Below are positions 1-33,706 of a stretch of 64,000 bases of DNA, in pieces; the stretch's first letter is position 1; every line of letters begins with the position of its first letter. Origin of the DNA: a bacterium (Candidatus Blackallbacteria) CG13_big_fil_rev_8_21_14_2_50_49_14. GTDB taxonomy: Bacteria; Cyanobacteriota; Sericytochromatia; UBA7694. The stretch is from contig PFGG01000045.1 in NCBI GenBank assembly GCA_002783405.1, forward strand, positions 22,238-86,237. The letters run 5' to 3'. Below the pieces are notes generated by a model. The model searched no databases and was not told where the DNA came from. It was given only the letters and a program-made list of their open reading frames with translations. The translations under genes were made by a program, and so were the position numbers.

Positions 1-2
1 AG

Positions 3-65
3 GTCATTGATACCACGGATCATGCCCAAGGGGAAAACCCCTATTACCGCGCTTCTGCGCATTGA
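3..65 (+). CDS. C-terminal tail of an upstream gene (partial, tentative)
   Basis: The third forward frame is open from the window edge to a TGA at 63-65 and reads as a polar tail ending NPYYRASAH. It stops 12 bases before the next ATG, which is the spacing expected inside an operon. Frame 1 is also open here, to a TGA at 79-81, so the choice of frame is uncertain. The fragment is too short for any family to be recognised. Confidence 0.3.
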   Translation, partial: VIDTTDHAQGENPYYRASAH

Positions 66-77
66 TTCAGGTGCACT

Positions 78-3000
78 ATGAATAAGCTTGAACGGGCCAA
101 CCGAGTACGTCGCCAGGAAGCGGGTTTGTGCCGCCAATGGAGTTTGGATGATTTTCATCAGGTTTTAAGAGCAGCCTCCGTCACGCGGGCCTATCTGGTC
201 TATGAAAATGGCTTGTTCAGGCTTTCCCATCCCCATCTGCTGAAACCCCTGCAGAGTTTTTTTGAACTCTCTCAGGATTTTTCAAGCCATGAAGGGGTGT
301 TTATTGGCCGTGAGGAGGGCATTGACGCGCTTTTCTTTGCCTTTGTGCATGATACGCGCAGGGGCTTGGCACAAGGGGGCCTGCGCTTTGCGCCCTATAC
401 GAATCTGGCAGAGGTCTTGGTCGACGGTCTGCGCCTTTCACAGGGAATGACGCGAAAAAACGCCTTGGCGGGTTTGGATTGGGGGGGCGGCAAGGGCATT
501 ATGACCCTTCCTTCTCAGTTTAAACATCCGCGTGAATTCCAGGCAAGCCCTGAACGTCAGGCCTGTTTTGAAGCCTATGGCCGTTTTGTGGCCTCGTTGG
601 GCGGCGTTTATTATACCGCTGAAGACGTGGGCACCAATACCCAGGATATGGCGGCACTCTTAACGCAAAATCGTTTTACCACCTGTATCCCGCCAGAACG
701 TGGGGGCAGTGGCAACCCCTCTCCTTTTACTGCCCGTGGCGTTTTGCGGGCCATGCAGGCTGCTTGGCTTGCGCTCTCTGGCAGCGACAATCTTCGTGGG
801 GTACGGGTCGCCGTTCAGGGCACAGGCAATGTGGGCGCACCTTTGATCCGCGCGCTCGATGATTTGGGGGCCACTGTTCTGATTTCCGAGCTGAATCAGG
901 CCTCCTTGAATGAAATTCTGGCAGAACGCCCCCATCTGGAGGTGATTTCGCCTCCGGATGCAATCTTTGATGCCGAAGCCGATATTTTTGCCCCCTGTGC
1001 CATTGGTGCCCAGGTGAATGCCGATACCATTCCCCGTTTAAAGGTGAAATTGGTTTGCGGGGCTGCCAATAATATTCTCAAGGAGCCTGAAGCCGATGCC
1101 GAACGATTGCGGCAGCGCAGTATTGGTTTTGTGCCCGATTTTGTCTGCAACCGCATGGGCATTGTGAACTGTGCCGACGAGTGGCAGGGCTATCTCGCAG
1201 AAGATGTACAACTCGCGGCAGAACGGGTTTTTCCGGATACCCTGCGTGTGTTTAATTATGCGCAAAGCCGCCACTGTACGGCTACCCAGGCCGCCAATGA
1301 TCTGGCCGATATGGCTGCCAGTGAATTGCATCCCCTGATGGGACATCGGGGCAGAAGGATTATTGATCACCTGATCATTTCAGGTTGGGCGCAAGGAGAT
1401 GCCAAGCCCAAAACAGAACGTCGCTTTGAACCGATTTTTGTGCCCGTGCTGGATGAGCCTCCTTTGCGGCTGCAATGGGAGCGAGAGGGTTTCTACGGGG
1501 GAGATTTTCCAGTTTTAGCAGCAACTCCGTACTCTACTGCATTTGCTCCATCTTTGGCTGATATTCTCTCTTCCGTGTTATTGGATATAAAATCCCGGGC
1601 CCTGCAACTTCACCAGGGAGTCTCTCCCCGCAGGGTTTTGGGAACCGAGCATGGCGGTCTGGCACTTCAGTTGGCCGTTGAGCGCAATTCGCCCTATACG
1701 CGTGAAGAATTGGGCCGAACGGAGTTTGTCTCCATGTGTCGGGACCATTATTTCAGAAATGAAGCCAGGGTCAGAGAACAATTGCAAGTCAGCGGCGTGG
1801 GCTTTGAACCTCCCCAATGGCTCAGTCCCATGCGCGATTCCGGCAGTTCAACCGTTCAAGCGCTCTATGATTTTTTAAACCGTTCAGGCTTGGTCTATAC
1901 CCAGGAGTGCATTGCCTATCACAGCCCCACTTCAGGTTCGGTGATGGTGGCCTCAGATTTAAAGCGCTCGAAATTAAAGGTCGATTCACGTTATTTCTAT
2001 CACCTTGTTTCAGCGTCAGGTAAATCAGCCGATGTCGAAATCTATTTCCTCGAATATCTGCCTGGGGTGGTGGCTTTGGGCGTTCATCCCGAGGGGGCAT
2101 ATGCCGACTGGGTGGGCCAGGAAATTCAGCATCCAATTTATCGACACCCAATCCCCGTGCTGGCCTCTGTTAATTTAAATGCTGAAATCGAATGGATTAT
2201 TCCCTTGGCGCGCAAAGCGCATGAAAGACTGGCGCGGGAATACGGTCTGAATCCGCAAGTTCAGCTTTTTGATGCCCAGGGTTTGATGTCGGCCCCTGAA
2301 TTTCAAGCTTTTACGCCCCAGCAGGCCTGTGAAAATATTGTGGAGCGTCTGGCTTCTCGCCTGCGTCAGGAATCCGGCCAATGGGCAGTGGATGCCCTGT
2401 ATTGCTCCCGTTCAGGCGTCAGGGTTATTCCCCGTTACAGTGAGCAGCGTTTTGTGCGGATTGAGCAGGCGGTGAAAGACTTGAAACGCGCGGTTATGGA
2501 AAATGAAATTCGCTTCAGTTCTGAACTCTGGAAAGAGCATGTTTTGAAAATTCTCTCTGGCCTTTCGATCTGGTGTATCTCCAGGCAGTATTGGTGGGGA
2601 AATGCCATTCCCAATTCTGAAGATGTCTTTTCGACTTGGTTTTCAATGGCGGCCTGGGTATTACAGGGCGCAGGCTGGCCAGACAATCCCAAGCCAGAGG
2701 CAATCGATGAAGTCTTTGTGGATCAGGAACTGCTCTTCCGATGGGTCGTGCCCTCACTTTTGGTGGGCATGATTGTGACAGGTCAGCCCGTATTTAAACA
2801 TATTTATGTCCATGGTACGCTCCATGTCCAGGAGCGTCATTTACTCCCTTCAGGTCAGGGCTCGGAGCAGGCCTCTGACGAAGAGCGTTTTCAGTTCAAG
2901 CGCGTTAAACGGCCCATGAAATACCGTTTGGGCAATATCGTTGAACCCGCGACTTTGGTGCGCCGCTTTGGAGCCGATGCGCTGCGCTTGGGGTTTGTGC

Positions 3001-3509
3001 TTTCACTCGAATCCTCAGCTCCTGATGTGGTGATGCTTTCAGAGGAGCGCCTCAGACTCGCGCGCAAAGTCCTGTATGAGTTAAATTCAAAATTGAGTGG
3101 TTTTTATCAACTGGTCAAAGCTTCGGATCTCCCGGTTGAGCTTTTGCCTTTGGATTGTTACCTGCTGCAAAAAATACCCGATTTGGAAAAATGCGTTAGT
3201 GAGGCCTATCAAGCGAATCAATTTGGCTTGATCGGCAAAGAACTGATTACCGCTTCGCGGGAATTGGTGAAATATATCAATACGGTGATCGAGTTGCGGC
3301 GGACGAAAAGTCTGGCCTCTGCCCTGTATGTGGTTCAAGTCGTTTTGAGTGCTTACCATCAGCTTTTTTCGCCGCTTTGCCCCTTTTTGTTTCAAAAGTT
3401 GTTTAGTTGGAGCCGGGAAAGAGCAGTTCAAACTTCGGCTGTTTTCTCGGAGTCTGATCCGCTATACTCATGGGAAGAAGCATTGCTCCTGGAAAGGGAG
3501 ATCCCATGA
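78..3509 (+). CDS. Leu/Val-type amino acid dehydrogenase fused to a degenerate valyl-tRNA-synthetase-like module
   Basis: Residues about 70-440 are a Glu/Leu/Phe/Val dehydrogenase, which performs NAD-linked reversible oxidative deamination of branched-chain amino acids. The substrate and catalytic motifs look intact: MTRKNA and WGGGKG supply two lysines, TAEDVGT the aspartate, and GTGNVG (about 249) the dinucleotide fold. Residues about 470-1143 follow valyl-tRNA synthetase in order: GTEHGG just after the HIGH position, GVHPE in the editing domain (about 667), ISRQYWWG (about 834), DVFSTWFS, FGADALRLG and an anticodon-binding-like helical end. The HIGH signature is replaced by APSLAD (about 489), KMSKS by MKYRL (about 946), and the editing TxRPE and zinc cysteines are missing. 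Aminoacylation is therefore unlikely; a regulatory or valine-sensing role is my inference. An AGGTG at 69-73 precedes the ATG. The stop overlaps the next start (ATGA). Confidence 0.85.
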   Translation: MNKLERANRVRRQEAGLCRQWSLDDFHQVLRAASVTRAYLVYENGLFRLSHPHLLKPLQSFFELSQDFSSHEGVFIGREEGIDALFFAFVHDTRRGLAQGGLRFAPYTNLAEVLVDGLRLSQGMTRKNALAGLDWGGGKGIMTLPSQFKHPREFQASPERQACFEAYGRFVASLGGVYYTAEDVGTNTQDMAALLTQNRFTTCIPPERGGSGNPSPFTARGVLRAMQAAWLALSGSDNLRGVRVAVQGTGNVGAPLIRALDDLGATVLISELNQASLNEILAERPHLEVISPPDAIFDAEADIFAPCAIGAQVNADTIPRLKVKLVCGAANNILKEPEADAERLRQRSIGFVPDFVCNRMGIVNCADEWQGYLAEDVQLAAERVFPDTLRVFNYAQSRHCTATQAANDLADMAASELHPLMGHRGRRIIDHLIISGWAQGDAKPKTERRFEPIFVPVLDEPPLRLQWEREGFYGGDFPVLAATPYSTAFAPSLADILSSVLLDIKSRALQLHQGVSPRRVLGTEHGGLALQLAVERNSPYTREELGRTEFVSMCRDHYFRNEARVREQLQVSGVGFEPPQWLSPMRDSGSSTVQALYDFLNRSGLVYTQECIAYHSPTSGSVMVASDLKRSKLKVDSRYFYHLVSASGKSADVEIYFLEYLPGVVALGVHPEGAYADWVGQEIQHPIYRHPIPVLASVNLNAEIEWIIPLARKAHERLAREYGLNPQVQLFDAQGLMSAPEFQAFTPQQACENIVERLASRLRQESGQWAVDALYCSRSGVRVIPRYSEQRFVRIEQAVKDLKRAVMENEIRFSSELWKEHVLKILSGLSIWCISRQYWWGNAIPNSEDVFSTWFSMAAWVLQGAGWPDNPKPEAIDEVFVDQELLFRWVVPSLLVGMIVTGQPVFKHIYVHGTLHVQERHLLPSGQGSEQASDEERFQFKRVKRPMKYRLGNIVEPATLVRRFGADALRLGFVLSLESSAPDVVMLSEERLRLARKVLYELNSKLSGFYQLVKASDLPVELLPLDCYLLQKIPDLEKCVSEAYQANQFGLIGKELITASRELVKYINTVIELRRTKSLASALYVVQVVLSAYHQLFSPLCPFLFQKLFSWSRERAVQTSAVFSESDPLYSWEEALLLEREIP

Positions 3510-5158
3510 GAAAACTAAAAAATATCCAGGTATTTGCCCTTGCGCTTTTCGTAAGTGCCTGTCAGACTCAAAATCTGTCAAAGCCCCCTTTGCCCAGCAG
3601 CTCTCCTCTTCTTTCAGCCAGTGCAGTGCCGAGCCCTTCAGTCTTCCCAGGACTGACCAGCCCCTCGCCAGTGGCCAGTTCTGTTCCTGCGTTTACGCCG
3701 AAGCCCGGCAGTCAGGTGACACCCATTCCCCAACTCACCCCCACTCCCCAGCCCAAGCCGACGGCAAGTAGTTTGCTGCCTGCTGGTGCGAGCGTAGACG
3801 CCTCCTTGAAAGCTGAAATGGCCCAAATACTTGAAAAACTTTCTCCTGGAATCCAATCCCATGCTCTGGTTTCAGAGATTACCCATGCCCATGCTTTGCA
3901 ATTGGCCCAGGATTCAAAAAATACACAATTTCAAATTCAAGCGACGTATGATCCTATTTCCCCCTCCGCCTTGCAAATTTTGATGATGCACGCAGGGGTT
4001 TTTGCTTCAGACAACCTATTGAATGCTTATTTTTCTGATTCAAACAGCAGCAGTCTGCTCAGCCGCTTCAGCCAACAAATATCAAAATCCATGGGCAATT
4101 TACCTTTTACCCATTATGCGCTGGAGGTCATTCGCAAGGATTCTTCCTGGTATGTCAGCCTGGTGCTCTTAACTGAAATCGTGACGCTTAAAGGGCTACA
4201 GTTGGAGTATGCCCAGCCCGCGCAACTGAGTCTTCAGGGATCCATCAGGGATGCTCGTTTTCAGACGCCCAGTGGTTTATTGACGCGCCCCGATGGTCAG
4301 GTCGAAAGTTTAAATCTCAGCAGTTCGGATTCGCGTTTTGAGTTGCCACTTGATCTTTCCAGCACTGGCTATTACAGCTTTGAAATCAATGTGGTGGGGC
4401 CCTATGGGCCTCAGCCTGCCACCAATTTTGTCGTGGCTGTAGGCGTTCCCTATCCCAAACCTGAGAACCAGCCCGTTCCTTCACCTACCCCTTTGCCAGA
4501 AATATCTGGCCTGCGTCAATTGCTCTTGAATCTTGTCAATTCCGACCGACAGGCGATGGGGCTCTCTGCCCTGAGTGCAGATCCGCTCTTGGCTCAAGCT
4601 GCACAAAATCACTCCGAAGACATGATCAACCAAGGTTATATTGGCCACAATTCGCCGTCAGTTGGTAGCCCCCAGCAGCAGGTAGCTCTGGCGGGAGTTT
4701 CGGATTTGGTGGCGCAGAATATTGCCATTAGCCATTCTCCTGAGAATGCGCAGCGCGAATTGATGAGCAGCCCTGGCCACCGCAAAACCCTGATTAAGCC
4801 AGAATGGACCCATGTCGGTTTTGGCATTTCCCAGGCCCCAGACGGTTTTTTATATATTACCCAAGATTTTGTTCAACGCAAATTGGTATTGGATCCTTTC
4901 CCGGCTTCTATCAAACAGGGTGAAAATATAGTGGTCAAAGGCAAAGCCCTTTCAAGTTCAGGCTATCTGGGTGTCTTTCTGGATGGCACAATCCAAGGAA
5001 GCCCCTATAATCTGAGTGCGAATCCTGAATTCAATCTGCCAGTGAACCTGCTCAGTACGGGCAAACATCAACTGCGGATTGGTATCAGCGGCCCGCCTGT
5101 GAATAATTCCTATTCCTTTACTTTCTCTAACCTCTGGGATTTTACCGTCAATCCCTAA
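3506..5158 (+). CDS. CAP/SCP-domain lipoprotein
   Basis: A 550-residue exported protein. The ATG at 3506 is chosen over an in-frame ATG at 3470 because it opens directly into a lipoprotein signal (FALALFVSAC, cysteine about 16), follows a purine-rich GGAAAGGGAG, and overlaps the preceding stop as ATGA. A Pro/Ser/Thr-rich linker occupies about 20-100, typical of a surface tether. Residues about 345-470 form a CAP (SCP/PR1-like) domain with LLNLVNSDRQAMGL, HSEDM, GHNSP and SPGHRKTL, where the paired histidines of this family are visible. The last 90 residues look like a beta-sandwich. CAP domains occur in secreted bacterial proteins of mostly unknown activity, so the role is open. Coupling to the dehydrogenase fusion implies co-translation but not an obvious shared pathway. 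Confidence 0.8.
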   Translation: MRKLKNIQVFALALFVSACQTQNLSKPPLPSSSPLLSASAVPSPSVFPGLTSPSPVASSVPAFTPKPGSQVTPIPQLTPTPQPKPTASSLLPAGASVDASLKAEMAQILEKLSPGIQSHALVSEITHAHALQLAQDSKNTQFQIQATYDPISPSALQILMMHAGVFASDNLLNAYFSDSNSSSLLSRFSQQISKSMGNLPFTHYALEVIRKDSSWYVSLVLLTEIVTLKGLQLEYAQPAQLSLQGSIRDARFQTPSGLLTRPDGQVESLNLSSSDSRFELPLDLSSTGYYSFEINVVGPYGPQPATNFVVAVGVPYPKPENQPVPSPTPLPEISGLRQLLLNLVNSDRQAMGLSALSADPLLAQAAQNHSEDMINQGYIGHNSPSVGSPQQQVALAGVSDLVAQNIAISHSPENAQRELMSSPGHRKTLIKPEWTHVGFGISQAPDGFLYITQDFVQRKLVLDPFPASIKQGENIVVKGKALSSSGYLGVFLDGTIQGSPYNLSANPEFNLPVNLLSTGKHQLRIGISGPPVNNSYSFTFSNLWDFTVNP

Positions 5159-21855: not shown

Positions 21856-22077
21856 GTGGAAGAACTTCGCGCGCTTACACCTGGTGTACTCTTGGTTTCT
21901 TTAATCTATTCAATTTTGGGTATGATTTTTTTGATGGTGGCCTATAAGGTCTTTGATATCGTCAATGCCCTTGAGTTTACCAAAGAACTCGAAAAAAACA
22001 ATCAAGCCTTGGGAACTGTGATCGCAGGCTTTTTCATTGCCATCGCTATAATTATCGCAGCGGCAATTCACGGCTGA
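21856..22077 (+). CDS. DUF350 membrane protein
   Basis: A 73-residue protein with two membrane segments (about 11-33 and 50-71) separated by a charged loop, matching one DUF350 unit; the tail TVIAGFFIAIAIIIAAAIHG is typical. The start is GTG at 21856, supported by CGGAGG five bases upstream. The TGA overlaps the next ATG (TGATG). Biochemical function is unknown. Confidence 0.75.
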   Translation: MEELRALTPGVLLVSLIYSILGMIFLMVAYKVFDIVNALEFTKELEKNNQALGTVIAGFFIAIAIIIAAAIHG

Positions 22078-24497
22078 TGAAAAAGCTTCTTTCTTCTCTT
22101 CTCTTTGCCTGCAGTCTTTCTCTCGGCTCAGCAGCCCTGGCTGAAGAATCTACCCGTTTGTACCTGCCTCAGAGTGTTCCTTTGCCTGCTGTAGCTTTGG
22201 TCGATGATTCCAGTGCATTGGGACTCAATCCGGGGGGGGCTGGCGCAAAAGATTTATTTGAACTGTATCTGAGTAAATCTTTAAACCCCAACAATGCTGG
22301 GCAATTCAGTGTTTTTGCAGGCATTCCCAACATGTCCTTTGGGTATCAGCAATTTCAAGCGGGAATCTTGGGTGATTTGCGCCGTTTTTCAATGGGGGTC
22401 AGCTACCCCCTTCAAGACTATTTATCACTGGGCCTCTCCTATCACCTAACCCAGGAAATTGCATCTGCCAATTCCAATATTCATTCCTTTGATTTGGGGC
22501 TGCAATTTCGTCCCGTCAGCTTTTTATCTTTGGGCCTCAGTGCCCGAAACCTCAACAACCCCCGCGTTCAAGACCGCGAAATCAAGCGTTCCTATGTGGC
22601 CGGCGTAGGCGTCCGCCCCTTTGGCAAACGCTTGACCCTGACGGCTGATGCCCAATGGGATGAAGGCGATGATGTCAAACAAATGACCGGTCTTTTTGGG
22701 CTGGAATCTGAACCCATTGATGGGATACTACTCAGAGGCTCGATCGATTTAAAAGGTCAGTTCATGCTCGGATTGGGCTTCCAGTTTGATCATTTCAATC
22801 TGGGCTATTATCACAGCTTCAACGGAACGCCCAATCAAGACAGCCTGCACCTCAAGGTCACCAATACCACCTTTCATAACGCCATTCAACAAATGGGAAA
22901 CCATTTCGCCTATATTAACCTTCACCAGGGGCTGATTCTCGACTCCGGCGAACCCACAGGCAATTTTCTGCGTAAAAACCAACCGCTTTCCTATTGGCGT
23001 TTTTTGGAACAGCTCAAAGAAGTAGAGACGCTTTCCCGCTATAAGGGCGTCGTGATTGATCTCAGCAGCTTACGCGCTGGCCTGGGTACGATTGAAGAAA
23101 TTCATGAGGCCTTGCGCAGAGTGCGTTCTGCCGGAAAACAGATTATTGTCTATTTGCGTGAGGGTGGCATGGCCGAACACTACCTGGCCTCGCTGGCGGA
23201 TAAAATCGTCATGCATCCTTTGGGCAGCTTGCAAATGAAGGGCTTTTCTTATGTCATGCCCCATTATAAAGATCTGCTTGAGCAGGTGGGCGTCAATATC
23301 GAGTTTATCAAAGTCGGTGCGTATAAAACCGGTCTTGAATCTTATACCCGCAGCGAGTCCTCTGCCGCCACACTCGAACAATACGGTTCGATCCAAAAAG
23401 ACGATTTTGATCGCTACCTAGCCAATTTACAAGCCACCCGCCATTTGGATCCAGCTGTGATCGACAAGATTTTTAAAAAATCACTCTTCAATGCCAGTGA
23501 AGCCAAGGAAACGGGCTTAATTGATGCGATTGCCTATCAGGATGAAATCCCTGAAATAGCGGCCAATTTGATCCATCAACCCAGCAGTCAGTTTGAAGAT
23601 ATCAGCCGGACCCGCTTTGAAAAAAACGCCTGGGAACCCAGTGATAAAATAGCTGTCGTCTATATCTCTGGCAATATTGTGGAAGGCAACAGTGGACGTG
23701 GACTGGTCTTTGGAGAAGAATATGTCGGTTCAAATACCATTGTCGAACAAATTCTGGCTCTGCCCCGAGATCCCCAAGTCAAGGCCCTGGTGGTACGCAT
23801 CAACAGCCCAGGGGGCTCAGCCCTGGCCTCAGATGAAATTTACAGGGCCATGAAACTCTATAAAAAACTGACCGGCAATCCCGTGATCGTCTCAATGGCA
23901 GATGTGGCAGCTTCTGGTGGGTATTGGATTGCCCTGGCGGGGGATCAAATCCTTGCCAATGAAAGCACCATGACGGGAAGTATCGGCATTTATGCTGGAA
24001 AAACCAATCTCCACGGCCTGTTCAATCTGCTGGGCGTCAAGCATTCAATTATCAAAACGAATGAGAAAGCCGATGCTGAAGGTGAACACCGCGCCTATAG
24101 CGATGATGAACGCCAAATGATTCAAAACAATCTGAGAGAATACTACCGTGTTTTCCTGGAGCGGGTCTCTGAAAATCGCAAACTCGATTTCTCGGTAGTC
24201 GAACAGGTCGCCCAAGGTCGGGTCTATACGGGCAAACAGGCCTTGAATATTCACCTAGTCGACAAAATTGGAGGCCTTTCTGAAGCAATTGCCCTGGCCC
24301 GCAGCCAGGCAAAAATTCGTACCCAGGGCATACAAATTGAGCATTTGCCTGAAATGGGCAATTTCCTTGCCCAAGCGACCTTGCCTTTAGAGCAGAAAGC
24401 CCTCTTGCCTGAAATTCGAGCCTCGGTTGAGCGTTTGTTTCCCTCATCTACGCACGTTCTCGCGATGTTGGAGCCTGAATTTTTCTTAAAATTTTAA
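22077..24497 (+). CDS. sppA: Signal peptide peptidase SppA (67K type) with N-terminal beta-barrel-like region
   Basis: An 806-residue exported protein. Signal peptide 1-22 (ending GSAALAEE). Residues about 25-275 are alternating amphipathic strands (GVSYPLQDYLSLGLSYHL, FDLGLQFRPVSFLSLGLSAR) like an outer-membrane barrel. Residues about 290-800 are a tandem SppA: the N-domain supplies the general-base lysine region (FIKVGAYKTGLESY, about 417) and the C-domain the nucleophile serine in DVAASGGYWIA (about 613), followed by TGSIGIYAG. SppA clears leftover signal peptides at the membrane. The barrel fusion would place it at or near the outer membrane, which is unusual. It is coupled to DUF350 by TGATG. 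Confidence 0.85.
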   Translation: MKKLLSSLLFACSLSLGSAALAEESTRLYLPQSVPLPAVALVDDSSALGLNPGGAGAKDLFELYLSKSLNPNNAGQFSVFAGIPNMSFGYQQFQAGILGDLRRFSMGVSYPLQDYLSLGLSYHLTQEIASANSNIHSFDLGLQFRPVSFLSLGLSARNLNNPRVQDREIKRSYVAGVGVRPFGKRLTLTADAQWDEGDDVKQMTGLFGLESEPIDGILLRGSIDLKGQFMLGLGFQFDHFNLGYYHSFNGTPNQDSLHLKVTNTTFHNAIQQMGNHFAYINLHQGLILDSGEPTGNFLRKNQPLSYWRFLEQLKEVETLSRYKGVVIDLSSLRAGLGTIEEIHEALRRVRSAGKQIIVYLREGGMAEHYLASLADKIVMHPLGSLQMKGFSYVMPHYKDLLEQVGVNIEFIKVGAYKTGLESYTRSESSAATLEQYGSIQKDDFDRYLANLQATRHLDPAVIDKIFKKSLFNASEAKETGLIDAIAYQDEIPEIAANLIHQPSSQFEDISRTRFEKNAWEPSDKIAVVYISGNIVEGNSGRGLVFGEEYVGSNTIVEQILALPRDPQVKALVVRINSPGGSALASDEIYRAMKLYKKLTGNPVIVSMADVAASGGYWIALAGDQILANESTMTGSIGIYAGKTNLHGLFNLLGVKHSIIKTNEKADAEGEHRAYSDDERQMIQNNLREYYRVFLERVSENRKLDFSVVEQVAQGRVYTGKQALNIHLVDKIGGLSEAIALARSQAKIRTQGIQIEHLPEMGNFLAQATLPLEQKALLPEIRASVERLFPSSTHVLAMLEPEFFLKF

Positions 24498-31217: not shown

Positions 31218-32249
31218 CTAATCTGCCGTGTTTCTATTTTCACTGAGTTCCCCGCAGAGATTGACCTGCATCAGTTCACGGGTACGCTCCGGGCTATAGC
31301 CCACAGTCAAGAGGTAATAGAGTTTGGCCAAGGCCGCTTCTGCGGTCATATCCCCGCCGCCAATCACCCCCACCTCAGCCAAAGCGCGACCGGCTGCATA
31401 ACTGGTAATTTCAACACCGCCCTTCAGACATTGGGTAACATCGACAATCACCACGCCCCGTTCTGTAGCTTCTGCCAGAACGCGGAGAAAATCGGGGTCA
31501 CGGGCGGGGCCATTGCCCAGCCCATAGGCCTCTAAAATCAAACCCTGCAAAGGCGGCTGCAGCATATTTTCAAGCACCTGGGCCGAGATGCCGGGAAAGA
31601 GGCGCAAAGCCCCCACGGTGGCTTTATTCAGGGCCTGCACATGCAAATTGGGGGGTGTCACCGGCACCGGCCGAATTTCAGGCCAGCGAATCTCGATTTC
31701 AATACCGGCAGTACCCAAGAGCGGGTAATTGGGGGAGGCAAAAGCTTGAAACCCCTTGGCATCAACTTTAACGGCCCGACAGCCGCGCAAGAGTTTCCCG
31801 CCAAAGAAGAGACAGACTTCTGGAATCGCATATTGCGATGCGATCAGCAGCGAGGTGATCAGATTATCGCGGGCATCATTGCGAATTTCACAGAGCGGAA
31901 TTTGCGAACCCGTCAAAAGAACAGGCTTGCGCAATCCCTGCAACATAAAGGGCAGAGCCGAAGCGGTATAGGCCATCGTATCGGTTCCGTGCAGCACGAT
32001 AAAGCCATCGTAATCGTCATAATGGCTGGCGATATCCTCGGCAATTACCAGCCAGTCATCAGGGTGCATATTGGCTGAATCGAGCAGATTCGGGTATTCG
32101 TGGATTTCAAATTCTGGCATGCCCGCCTGATTAAACATCGGCATAAGTTCCATTTGGGCCTGAAGATAACCGGGCTCGGGACGATAGCCCTGGGGGGTAT
32201 TCATCATGCCGATCGTGCCGCCATTATAGGCAATATAAATCCGTTTCAT
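31218..32249 (-). CDS. ansA: Type I L-asparaginase
   Basis: A 343-residue cytoplasmic-type asparaginase, which hydrolyses asparagine to aspartate and ammonia. The first catalytic threonine is in YNGGTIGMM (about 8-16) and the second in LHGTDTMAYTASAL (about 87-100), followed by TGSQIPLCEIRNDARDN. It lacks a signal peptide, as type I enzymes do. Its ATG overlaps the TGA of the FHA-GAF-Nudix gene (TGATG), so translation is coupled. Confidence 0.93.
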   Translation of the reverse strand: MKRIYIAYNGGTIGMMNTPQGYRPEPGYLQAQMELMPMFNQAGMPEFEIHEYPNLLDSANMHPDDWLVIAEDIASHYDDYDGFIVLHGTDTMAYTASALPFMLQGLRKPVLLTGSQIPLCEIRNDARDNLITSLLIASQYAIPEVCLFFGGKLLRGCRAVKVDAKGFQAFASPNYPLLGTAGIEIEIRWPEIRPVPVTPPNLHVQALNKATVGALRLFPGISAQVLENMLQPPLQGLILEAYGLGNGPARDPDFLRVLAEATERGVVIVDVTQCLKGGVEITSYAAGRALAEVGVIGGGDMTAEAALAKLYYLLTVGYSPERTRELMQVNLCGELSENRNTAD

Positions 32250-33706
32250 CAGGCCTGAGTGCCTGATTCACGCAACTTGAGTAAATCTGAAAGAATACCT
32301 TCAAAATATTTTTTATCTTTGGCATGGGTCAAGAGCTCTGTCGCTGATTCCAGGGGAACCCACCGCGCTTCAGGATTATCTGGGTCTTGAGGTTTGAGTT
32401 CTTCCTGTTCAGTGGTAAAGAGGTACATATAGATGGTTTTAACTTCCCCCCTGTCCTCTGTTCCCTCAGAATTCAGTGCAGTGCGCTGATAAGATGGCAA
32501 AGGCCGGTTTAAGCGCAGAAATTCAATCCCGGATTCTTCAAAGATTTCCCTTTGAGCAGTCACGGCAGGCTCTTCTCCCACCTCAATTTTACCCTTGGGC
32601 AAAGACCAGGAGGTGCCTTTTTGACTCACGATCAGCACCTCCCCTTTGCTATTGAGAACCACGCCCCCAGAAGAATAGGTATGCGCAATCGGCGTGGGTT
32701 GAGGAACCGCTTTCGGTTTTTCTGCTTCTGGTTCTTCCAACAGCACAGTTGGATCTAGAATACTGAGTTTACGGGTCAAGGCCTGGTGGCGTTCTTCCAA
32801 GTTTTTATGCGCCAGATTAAGTTGTTCAAGCTCTTCCTGTTGCTTGTTTTTTTCAGCCTGTAAATCAGCATAGCGCTTCGCATTGACAATCGCAATCGCT
32901 GCCTGATCAGCCAAATAATCAAAGAGAAACTGATCCACATCGGTAAAATTATTCATGAGCTGTTTTGCATCGGCATAAAACAACCCAATTACGCGTTCTC
33001 TCAGCATCAGGGGGGCACACATCGCCGAATAGATTTTCTGCGACATCATGCTTTCACTGTGACCTAAAACCTGGGGATTGTCTGAATTAAGACGTACAAT
33101 CGTATGCTTTTCACTCAAAGCGTCTTTGAGAATCGAGTGGCTGATATCCGCCTGGCCGGATTCCGCTTTTTCCTTATCAATACGGTAGGTGGTCGCGTAT
33201 TTCCAGAGGATCTTCTCATGCGTATCTGTCAGCACAATAAACCCTCTTTCTGCGCCAATTAGCCCCAAACCTTCCTTGAGAATATTGAGCAGAATCATGT
33301 CCAGATTGTTGAGGGTGAGAATGGATTGCGTTACTTTTTTCAGGCGCATCAGATCATCTTTGTGGATAAAGTGCCTTTGCATATCCATCATGGTGTTTTG
33401 GCGGGGATCGGGCCCTGTTTCTTCGCTATAGACCAAATGAATATCGCTGGAGATTTGAATCCGATCATTCACTTCAAGTTGTTTTTGTTTGACCCTGACA
33501 CCATTCACAAAGACATAATTGGTAGAGTTGAGATCCTGAACCGTATAATGCCCGTTTTCAAGAAATATCCGGGCATGGTTGCGTGAAACCTTGGGGTGAT
33601 CAAATACAAGATCATTGTCTTTGCTTCTCCCAATCGACAGCACAGGCTTGTCCATGGGATATTTTTTGACAATATCATTGCCTTTTAGGTGTGTTAAGAA
33701 TTTCAT
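32249..33706 (-). CDS. FHA-GAF-Nudix fusion protein
   Basis: A 485-residue cytoplasmic protein. Residues 1-95 are an FHA phosphothreonine-binding domain (SIGRSKDNDLVF, VSRNHARI, LNSTNYVFVNG). About 115-285 form a GAF sensor domain (RGFIVL, MCAPLMLRERVIGLFYAD). A short coiled coil (about 285-320) leads to a Nudix hydrolase at about 345-480, with a perfect Nudix box: G372, E378, REIFEESGI. The closest simple Nudix relatives clean up dinucleoside polyphosphates, but the substrate here is not determined. The FHA part could read the output of a Ser/Thr kinase such as that at 8184-10472. It is coupled to ansA. Confidence 0.88.
   Translation of the reverse strand: MKFLTHLKGNDIVKKYPMDKPVLSIGRSKDNDLVFDHPKVSRNHARIFLENGHYTVQDLNSTNYVFVNGVRVKQKQLEVNDRIQISSDIHLVYSEETGPDPRQNTMMDMQRHFIHKDDLMRLKKVTQSILTLNNLDMILLNILKEGLGLIGAERGFIVLTDTHEKILWKYATTYRIDKEKAESGQADISHSILKDALSEKHTIVRLNSDNPQVLGHSESMMSQKIYSAMCAPLMLRERVIGLFYADAKQLMNNFTDVDQFLFDYLADQAAIAIVNAKRYADLQAEKNKQQEELEQLNLAHKNLEERHQALTRKLSILDPTVLLEEPEAEKPKAVPQPTPIAHTYSSGGVVLNSKGEVLIVSQKGTSWSLPKGKIEVGEEPAVTAQREIFEESGIEFLRLNRPLPSYQRTALNSEGTEDRGEVKTIYMYLFTTEQEELKPQDPDNPEARWVPLESATELLTHAKDKKYFEGILSDLLKLRESGTQA

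Follow-up and report, generated by a model that had tools for sequence, protein, structure and literature searches.

What might a protein do in which an amino acid dehydrogenase is continued, in the same chain, by a region resembling valyl-tRNA synthetase (ValRS) that has lost the catalytic motifs of a synthetase? The question is raised by a gene near the start of the window (the whole 64,000-nucleotide stretch of DNA that was analyzed, from a Sericytochromatia genome, here G000). An earlier note on this DNA had described a dehydrogenase fused to a ValRS-like module in an unbroken frame, and the open reading frame, the Pfam and NCBIfam models, and the PDB matches all bear that description out. 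The frame runs uninterrupted from an ATG start to a TGA stop. Its product matches ELFV_dehydrog_N (PF02812; 6e-15), ELFV_dehydrog (PF00208; 2e-15), and tRNA-synt_1 (6e-30), and the ELFV dimerization and NAD domains both exceed the Pfam cutoffs. The gene is laid out as follows.

78 to 3509, forward strand: whole fusion gene (1,143 amino acids, single frame), with one-frame homologues in 14 other genomes
78 to 287, forward strand: N-terminal extension of the dehydrogenase (residues 1 to 70; from alignment)
288 to 1373, forward strand: ELFV-type amino acid dehydrogenase core (residues 71 to 432), with a GTGNVG NAD-binding motif (Pfam, alignment, and structure match)
1374 to 1442, forward strand: linker (residues ~433 to 455; block mean pLDDT of 57, a low model confidence)
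1443 to 3428, forward strand: ValRS-like pseudo-synthetase module (residues 456 to 1117; Pfam, NCBIfam, PDB, tree, and structure)

An AlphaFold model built from fusion sequences alone (mean pLDDT, 74.7) has ValRS (1gax) as its top structural match, with leucine dehydrogenases ranked lower. A model from a deeper alignment, to which unfused dehydrogenases and true ValRS rows were added, reaches a pLDDT of 90.7 and a pTM of 0.82, a confidence that is partly borrowed because ValRS and leucine dehydrogenase rows are in its alignment. Its top structural match is 1gax (TM, 0.65 by target length), and it aligns with leucine and phenylalanine dehydrogenases at TM values of 0.83 to 0.92.

The dehydrogenase half was compared with leucine dehydrogenase (LeuDH), for which residue roles were taken from published work (PMC8766677).

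372 to 374, forward strand: Gln99, which takes the pocket position of LeuDH L40; all fusions aligned at this point have Gln
456 to 458, forward strand: Lys127, equivalent to LeuDH K68 (substrate carboxylate; from alignment)
492 to 494, forward strand: Lys139, equivalent to catalytic LeuDH K80 (from alignment)
624 to 626, forward strand: Asp183, equivalent to catalytic LeuDH D115 (from alignment)
1149 to 1172, forward strand: NRMGIVNC signature, in which LeuDH V291 is replaced by Ile and V294 by Cys

The catalytic lysine pair and the aspartate of LeuDH (K68, K80, and D115) are all kept, and the dehydrogenase half is seemingly in working order and probably active. LeuDH pocket residues are altered (L40 to Gln, I111 to Tyr, V291 to Ile, and V294 to Cys), while A113 is retained as Ala181; the leucine-type side-chain pocket (L40, A113, V291, and V294) is thus not found in the fusion. 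The suggestion that valine, leucine, and isoleucine are its substrates is therefore not supported, and because the pocket differs from that of leucine dehydrogenase, a branched-chain substrate is no more than a possibility. By its sequence, the protein is an ELFV superfamily dehydrogenase and not a leucine dehydrogenase proper. With LeuDH and other ELFV dehydrogenases, including the tryptophan dehydrogenase ScyB, it shares the fold, the cofactor motif, the two catalytic lysines, and the aspartate, whereas the N-terminal extension, the NRMGI signature, the changed pocket, and the C-terminal ValRS-like module set it apart. The genome's own leucine dehydrogenase is about 37% identical to the fused dehydrogenase and has no such extension, which is common to the unfused relatives. 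The closest of these found are Acidobacteriota proteins with the N-terminal extension and the NRMGI signature. These unfused Acidobacteriota proteins (L116 to L126) form a distinct dehydrogenase group.

The C-terminal half resembles ValRS in its domain order, in its ISRQxWWG, TWFS, and FGAD motifs, and in having 1gax as its best structural match; it differs in the absence of HIGH, KMSKS, and the editing motif, in a truncated C terminus (the C-terminal ValRS coiled coil is missing), and in a long new insert. When the C-terminal 693 residues were searched alone, as had been recommended, Thermus thermophilus ValRS was the best PDB match (1.9e-25). NCBIfam valS models align from about residue 497 (up to 2.5e-53) but far below their cutoffs, TIGR00422 giving 169.9 bits against a cutoff of 612.1.

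1527 to 1565, forward strand: former HIGH region, PYSTAFAPSLADI; HIGH missing in 12 of 12 fusions
1641 to 1658, forward strand: GTEHGG, equivalent to ValRS GTDHAG; its acid is expected to hold the amino group (D or E in 10 of 12 fusions)
1893 to 2405, forward strand: CP1 (editing-like) domain, which lacks TTRPET; the relative in G133 has lost it by deletion
2577 to 2600, forward strand: ISRQYWWG, a retained ValRS signature
2631 to 2642, forward strand: STWF with Trp854, equivalent to T. thermophilus ValRS W456; all 12 fusions have Trp
2739 to 2744, forward strand: RW with Trp889, equivalent to ValRS W495; Trp in 12 of 12
2823 to 2915, forward strand: insert of ~25 to 50 residues that ends in a conserved DEERF, not present in ValRS; a predicted strand pair beside the former KMSKS
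2913 to 2927, forward strand: former KMSKS, now PMKYR; KMSKS missing in 12 of 12 fusions
2967 to 2993, forward strand: FGADALRLG, a retained ValRS signature
3042 to 3428, forward strand: helical bundle where ValRS has its anticodon-binding domain; within the window's genus, no other part is less conserved

DVFSTWFS is present in this half as well, so that all three signatures singled out earlier (ISRQYWWG, DVFSTWFS, and FGADALRLG) are where they were said to be. The reported loss of the catalytic and editing motifs extends to the family: HIGH and KMSKS are missing in all of the 12 aligned fusion copies on which our motif counts are based, and TTRPET is gone in every fusion that still has an editing domain. 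Because HIGH and KMSKS are missing throughout, the module is not expected to form adenylates by the class I mechanism, and the fusion protein is, on its sequence, not a valyl-tRNA synthetase. In the fusion of G133 (L128), the whole editing (CP1) domain is lost and the remainder is kept. The survival of the valine pocket, a check proposed in the earlier note, was assessed at W456, W495, I491, and D81, which we take to be the valine contacts of ValRS (1gax work; T. thermophilus numbering). The equivalents of both tryptophans are Trp in all 12 fusions, the two exceptions to an acid at the D81 position are Asn, and the I491 equivalent varies. The claim that the zinc motif had gone holds for the window's protein but not for the family, as both Cys pairs are retained in G002, G061, G062, G063, and G133. 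Because these relatives keep the cysteines and the active-type ValRS of the window's own genome likewise lacks them, the zinc loss is no sign of a dead protein.

The fusion occurs in one frame in 15 genomes from about six labeled phyla (Sericytochromatia, Acidobacteriota, Planctomycetota, Wallbacteria, Calditrichaeota, and KSB1) and at least fifteen species, and the frame is conserved across the other genomes at 41 to 71% identity. Three further copies are partial or masked: those in G004 and G066 end at contig ends, and that in G065 is interrupted by a masked stretch. An alignment-based scan of GTDB species genomes yielded 11 loci, and phylum-wide searches added G400, G133, G905, G906, and G907; a single-sequence protein scan of genome contigs with the C-terminal half as query gave no match. 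Within the window's own order, five of seven genomes carry the fusion. Outside it, the fusion is rare (3 of 347, 2 of 343, 2 of 40, 1 of 40, and 3 of 82 genomes in the phyla searched), and these rates are lower bounds, since the larger searches scored two or three candidates per genome. With the same number of candidates per genome in the larger searches, no unfused dead ValRS module was found at an E value of ≤1e-70 in the phyla searched. PLSDB contained no near-full-length match, the rows listed covering the dehydrogenase part only. The named records carrying the fusion are metagenome-assembled genomes.

The ValRS-like halves form a single clade (100/100), separate from the ValRSs of their hosts, although this clade sits on a very long branch whose exact root is uncertain. 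Likewise, the fused dehydrogenases form a single clade (SH-aLRT, 100) separate from unfused relatives. Because each half forms a single clade, we infer from the trees one ancient fusion, probably followed by losses or transfers. Since the fusion modules are one clade outside each host's ValRS, we rejected an origin by recent duplication of the host valS.

At 162 positions conserved in ValRS, the fusions keep the residue at 39, have switched to another conserved residue at 15, and are relaxed at 108; a further 67 positions are conserved in the fusions only. This pattern, together with the newly conserved positions, points to a new function and not to decay. Omega values (Nei-Gojobori, three pairs) are 0.00 to 0.05 for the dehydrogenase, 0.07 to 0.19 for the ValRS-like half, and 0.06 to 0.10 for valS. 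The G059-G060 pair (0.02, 0.08, and 0.06, respectively) is the better guide because dS is near saturation for G000-G001. Judged from these comparisons, both halves are under purifying selection and kept for a function; the module is an aminoacyl-tRNA synthetase paralogue without adenylation motifs that is nonetheless kept by selection. In the window's genus (G000-G001), the old active-site half is 74% identical and the anticodon-type bundle 50%, a pattern that does not hold for G059-G060. The earlier note's general idea, that a synthetase scaffold was recruited to regulate the enzyme, is plausible: a module that has lost its catalytic motifs and yet is strongly conserved is what recruitment predicts, and the pocket tryptophans are kept. 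Its branched-chain substrate and its use of the zinc loss are not supported.

A separate valS, whose presence the earlier note asked to have confirmed, was found in all 18 fusion genomes checked (in G004 and G905, a contig end cuts it short). In place of the ValRS usual in the family, G005 (L054) has a distant type that shares 31% identity with the G000 enzyme. The valS gene lies directly after the fusion in G400, G906, and G907, directly before it in G065, and 4 to 5 kb downstream, beyond two other genes, in G059 and G060. Such linkage, always on the same strand, was found in members of Acidobacteriota, KSB1, and Calditrichaeota. Two valS types are represented among the linked genes, which argues against linkage as one coinherited accident, and valS may stand on either side of the fusion. 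No valS linkage was seen around the fusion in G063, G133, and G905. In G000, valS is about 19 kb from the fusion, and in G001 it is on another contig. The immediate neighbors in the window are the following.

1 to 65, forward strand: 3' end of an Fe-S biogenesis (NifU/Nfu-type) gene, 12 bp upstream of the fusion; same neighbor in G001
3506 to 5158, forward strand: CAP-type lipoprotein gene, downstream, its ATG overlapping the fusion stop (ATGA); a neighbor of the fusion in G001, G002, and G004 as well

No branched-chain pathway gene was recognized among the few fusion neighbors looked at.

In our opinion, the best explanation, which we hold tentatively and at somewhat less than an even chance, is allosteric control of the dehydrogenase by the pseudo-synthetase half through a small, amino-acid-like ligand. 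The N-terminal half would be an NAD-dependent L-amino-acid dehydrogenase, and the C-terminal half would be a ValRS paralogue that has lost adenylate formation and now acts as an allosteric control module. Its old amino acid pocket would take up a small amino-acid-like ligand, the first candidate being valine or a near analogue, and the bound ligand would alter dehydrogenase activity. Several lines of evidence speak for this model, in which activity of the dehydrogenase, amino acid binding in the old pocket, control of the enzyme, and the identity of the amino acid are inferred: the dehydrogenase catalytic residues are kept while HIGH and KMSKS are lost, the pocket tryptophans are invariant (12 of 12) and an acid occupies the D81 position in 10 of 12, both halves are under selection and form single clades, a separate ValRS accompanies every fusion (18 of 18) and its gene is frequently linked, and a HisRS paralogue, HisZ, offers a precedent in controlling HisG via histidine. 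Against this reading stand the variable I491 position and the Asn at the D81 position of two fusions, a dehydrogenase pocket that is not that of LeuDH, the lack of a branched-chain gene among the neighbors examined, and, in Sericytochromatia, unrelated neighbors (Nfu and lipoprotein) with valS ~19 kb off or on another contig.

Two observations favor a small ligand over tRNA: in the window's genus, conservation is lowest in the bundle, where ValRS reads the anticodon, and a fusion can do without the editing domain. From sequence comparison, binding of a small molecule seems likelier than binding of tRNA. It is rather unlikely that the pseudo-synthetase half docks on tRNA-Val or on the real ValRS and that the dehydrogenase responds to tRNA charging in the manner of Gcn2. 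Such docking would fit the gene arrangement in KSB1, Acidobacteriota, and Calditrichaeota genomes, where valS, in two types and on either side, adjoins the fusion or lies close to it, as it would the retained remnant of the anticodon-binding bundle and the precedent of the HisRS-like domain of Gcn2, which answers to uncharged tRNA. However, that bundle is only 50% identical between G000 and G001, the editing domain is deleted in G133, the coiled coil is missing, and three genomes (G063, G133, and G905) show no linkage. A one-protein bacterial Gcn2-like sensor, in which the pseudo-ValRS half would read tRNA-Val charging or the adjacently encoded ValRS and switch the dehydrogenase, is quite unlikely. 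Also unlikely is a purely structural scaffold that has no ligand and serves in oligomer control, stability, or placement: the lost catalytic motifs, the dispensable CP1 (deleted in G133), and the many relaxed positions are compatible with it, but the old active-site half is among the conserved parts, 67 positions are newly conserved, and both pocket tryptophans are kept. The new conserved insert (DEERF) ahead of the former KMSKS and the many newly conserved residues could alternatively reflect other chemistry kept or gained without HIGH and KMSKS, for example with the dehydrogenase product, or an aminoacyl or acyl carrier, as its substrate; as no candidate nucleotide-binding motif was recognized and no carrier protein gene near the fusion, we consider this very unlikely. 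The chance of an assembly artifact or a decaying pseudogene is negligible. The metagenomic origin of the named records might raise that suspicion, but the identical in-frame joint recurs in 15 separate genomes from about six labeled phyla, omega is low, and each half forms a single clade. Both assembly error and pseudogene were rejected on the multigenome joint and the low omega. The earlier note had named three findings that would count against it, namely a genome with no other valS, an assembly error joining two genes, and a frame not conserved in relatives; none of them was encountered.

Control of the dehydrogenase by a ligand in the old pocket has its nearest parallel in HisZ, a HisRS paralogue without adenylation activity that bears the histidine feedback site of HisG (PMC9437257; PMC4335047). 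Both link a synthetase paralogue that lacks adenylation with an enzyme of amino acid metabolism (HisG is the ATP phosphoribosyltransferase), and in both the former active site is where allosteric control is proposed to act. HisZ, however, is class II and a separate subunit, whereas the fusion module is class I, ValRS-like rather than of class II HisRS origin, and in one chain with the dehydrogenase, its regulatory role being predicted. Gcn2 likewise has a pseudo-synthetase domain (HisRS-like) fused to a catalytic domain, but it is class II and eukaryotic, binds uncharged tRNA, and controls a kinase. Thus, enzyme-controlling pseudo-synthetases are already known for HisRS (HisZ and Gcn2). In the open-access literature searched, we found only precedents of these types and no description of the fusion itself, nor any report of a class I ValRS-derived pseudo-synthetase that is fused to an amino acid dehydrogenase and kept across phyla. 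The retention of the module by selection after the loss of its catalytic motifs suggests that a translation enzyme has been converted into a control module for amino acid metabolism. As a single purifiable protein with a simple NADH assay, the fusion could be used to test the old idea that synthetases became amino acid sensors. If it instead reads tRNA-Val charging, amino acid metabolism would be coupled directly to translation via a class I synthetase.

Two other genes in the window deserve mention. A 485-residue protein combining FHA, GAF, and Nudix domains, an unusual combination, is encoded at 32249 to 33706 on the reverse strand, and a signal peptide peptidase (Peptidase_S49), whose long N-terminal region resembles an outer-membrane barrel, at 22077 to 24497 on the forward strand.
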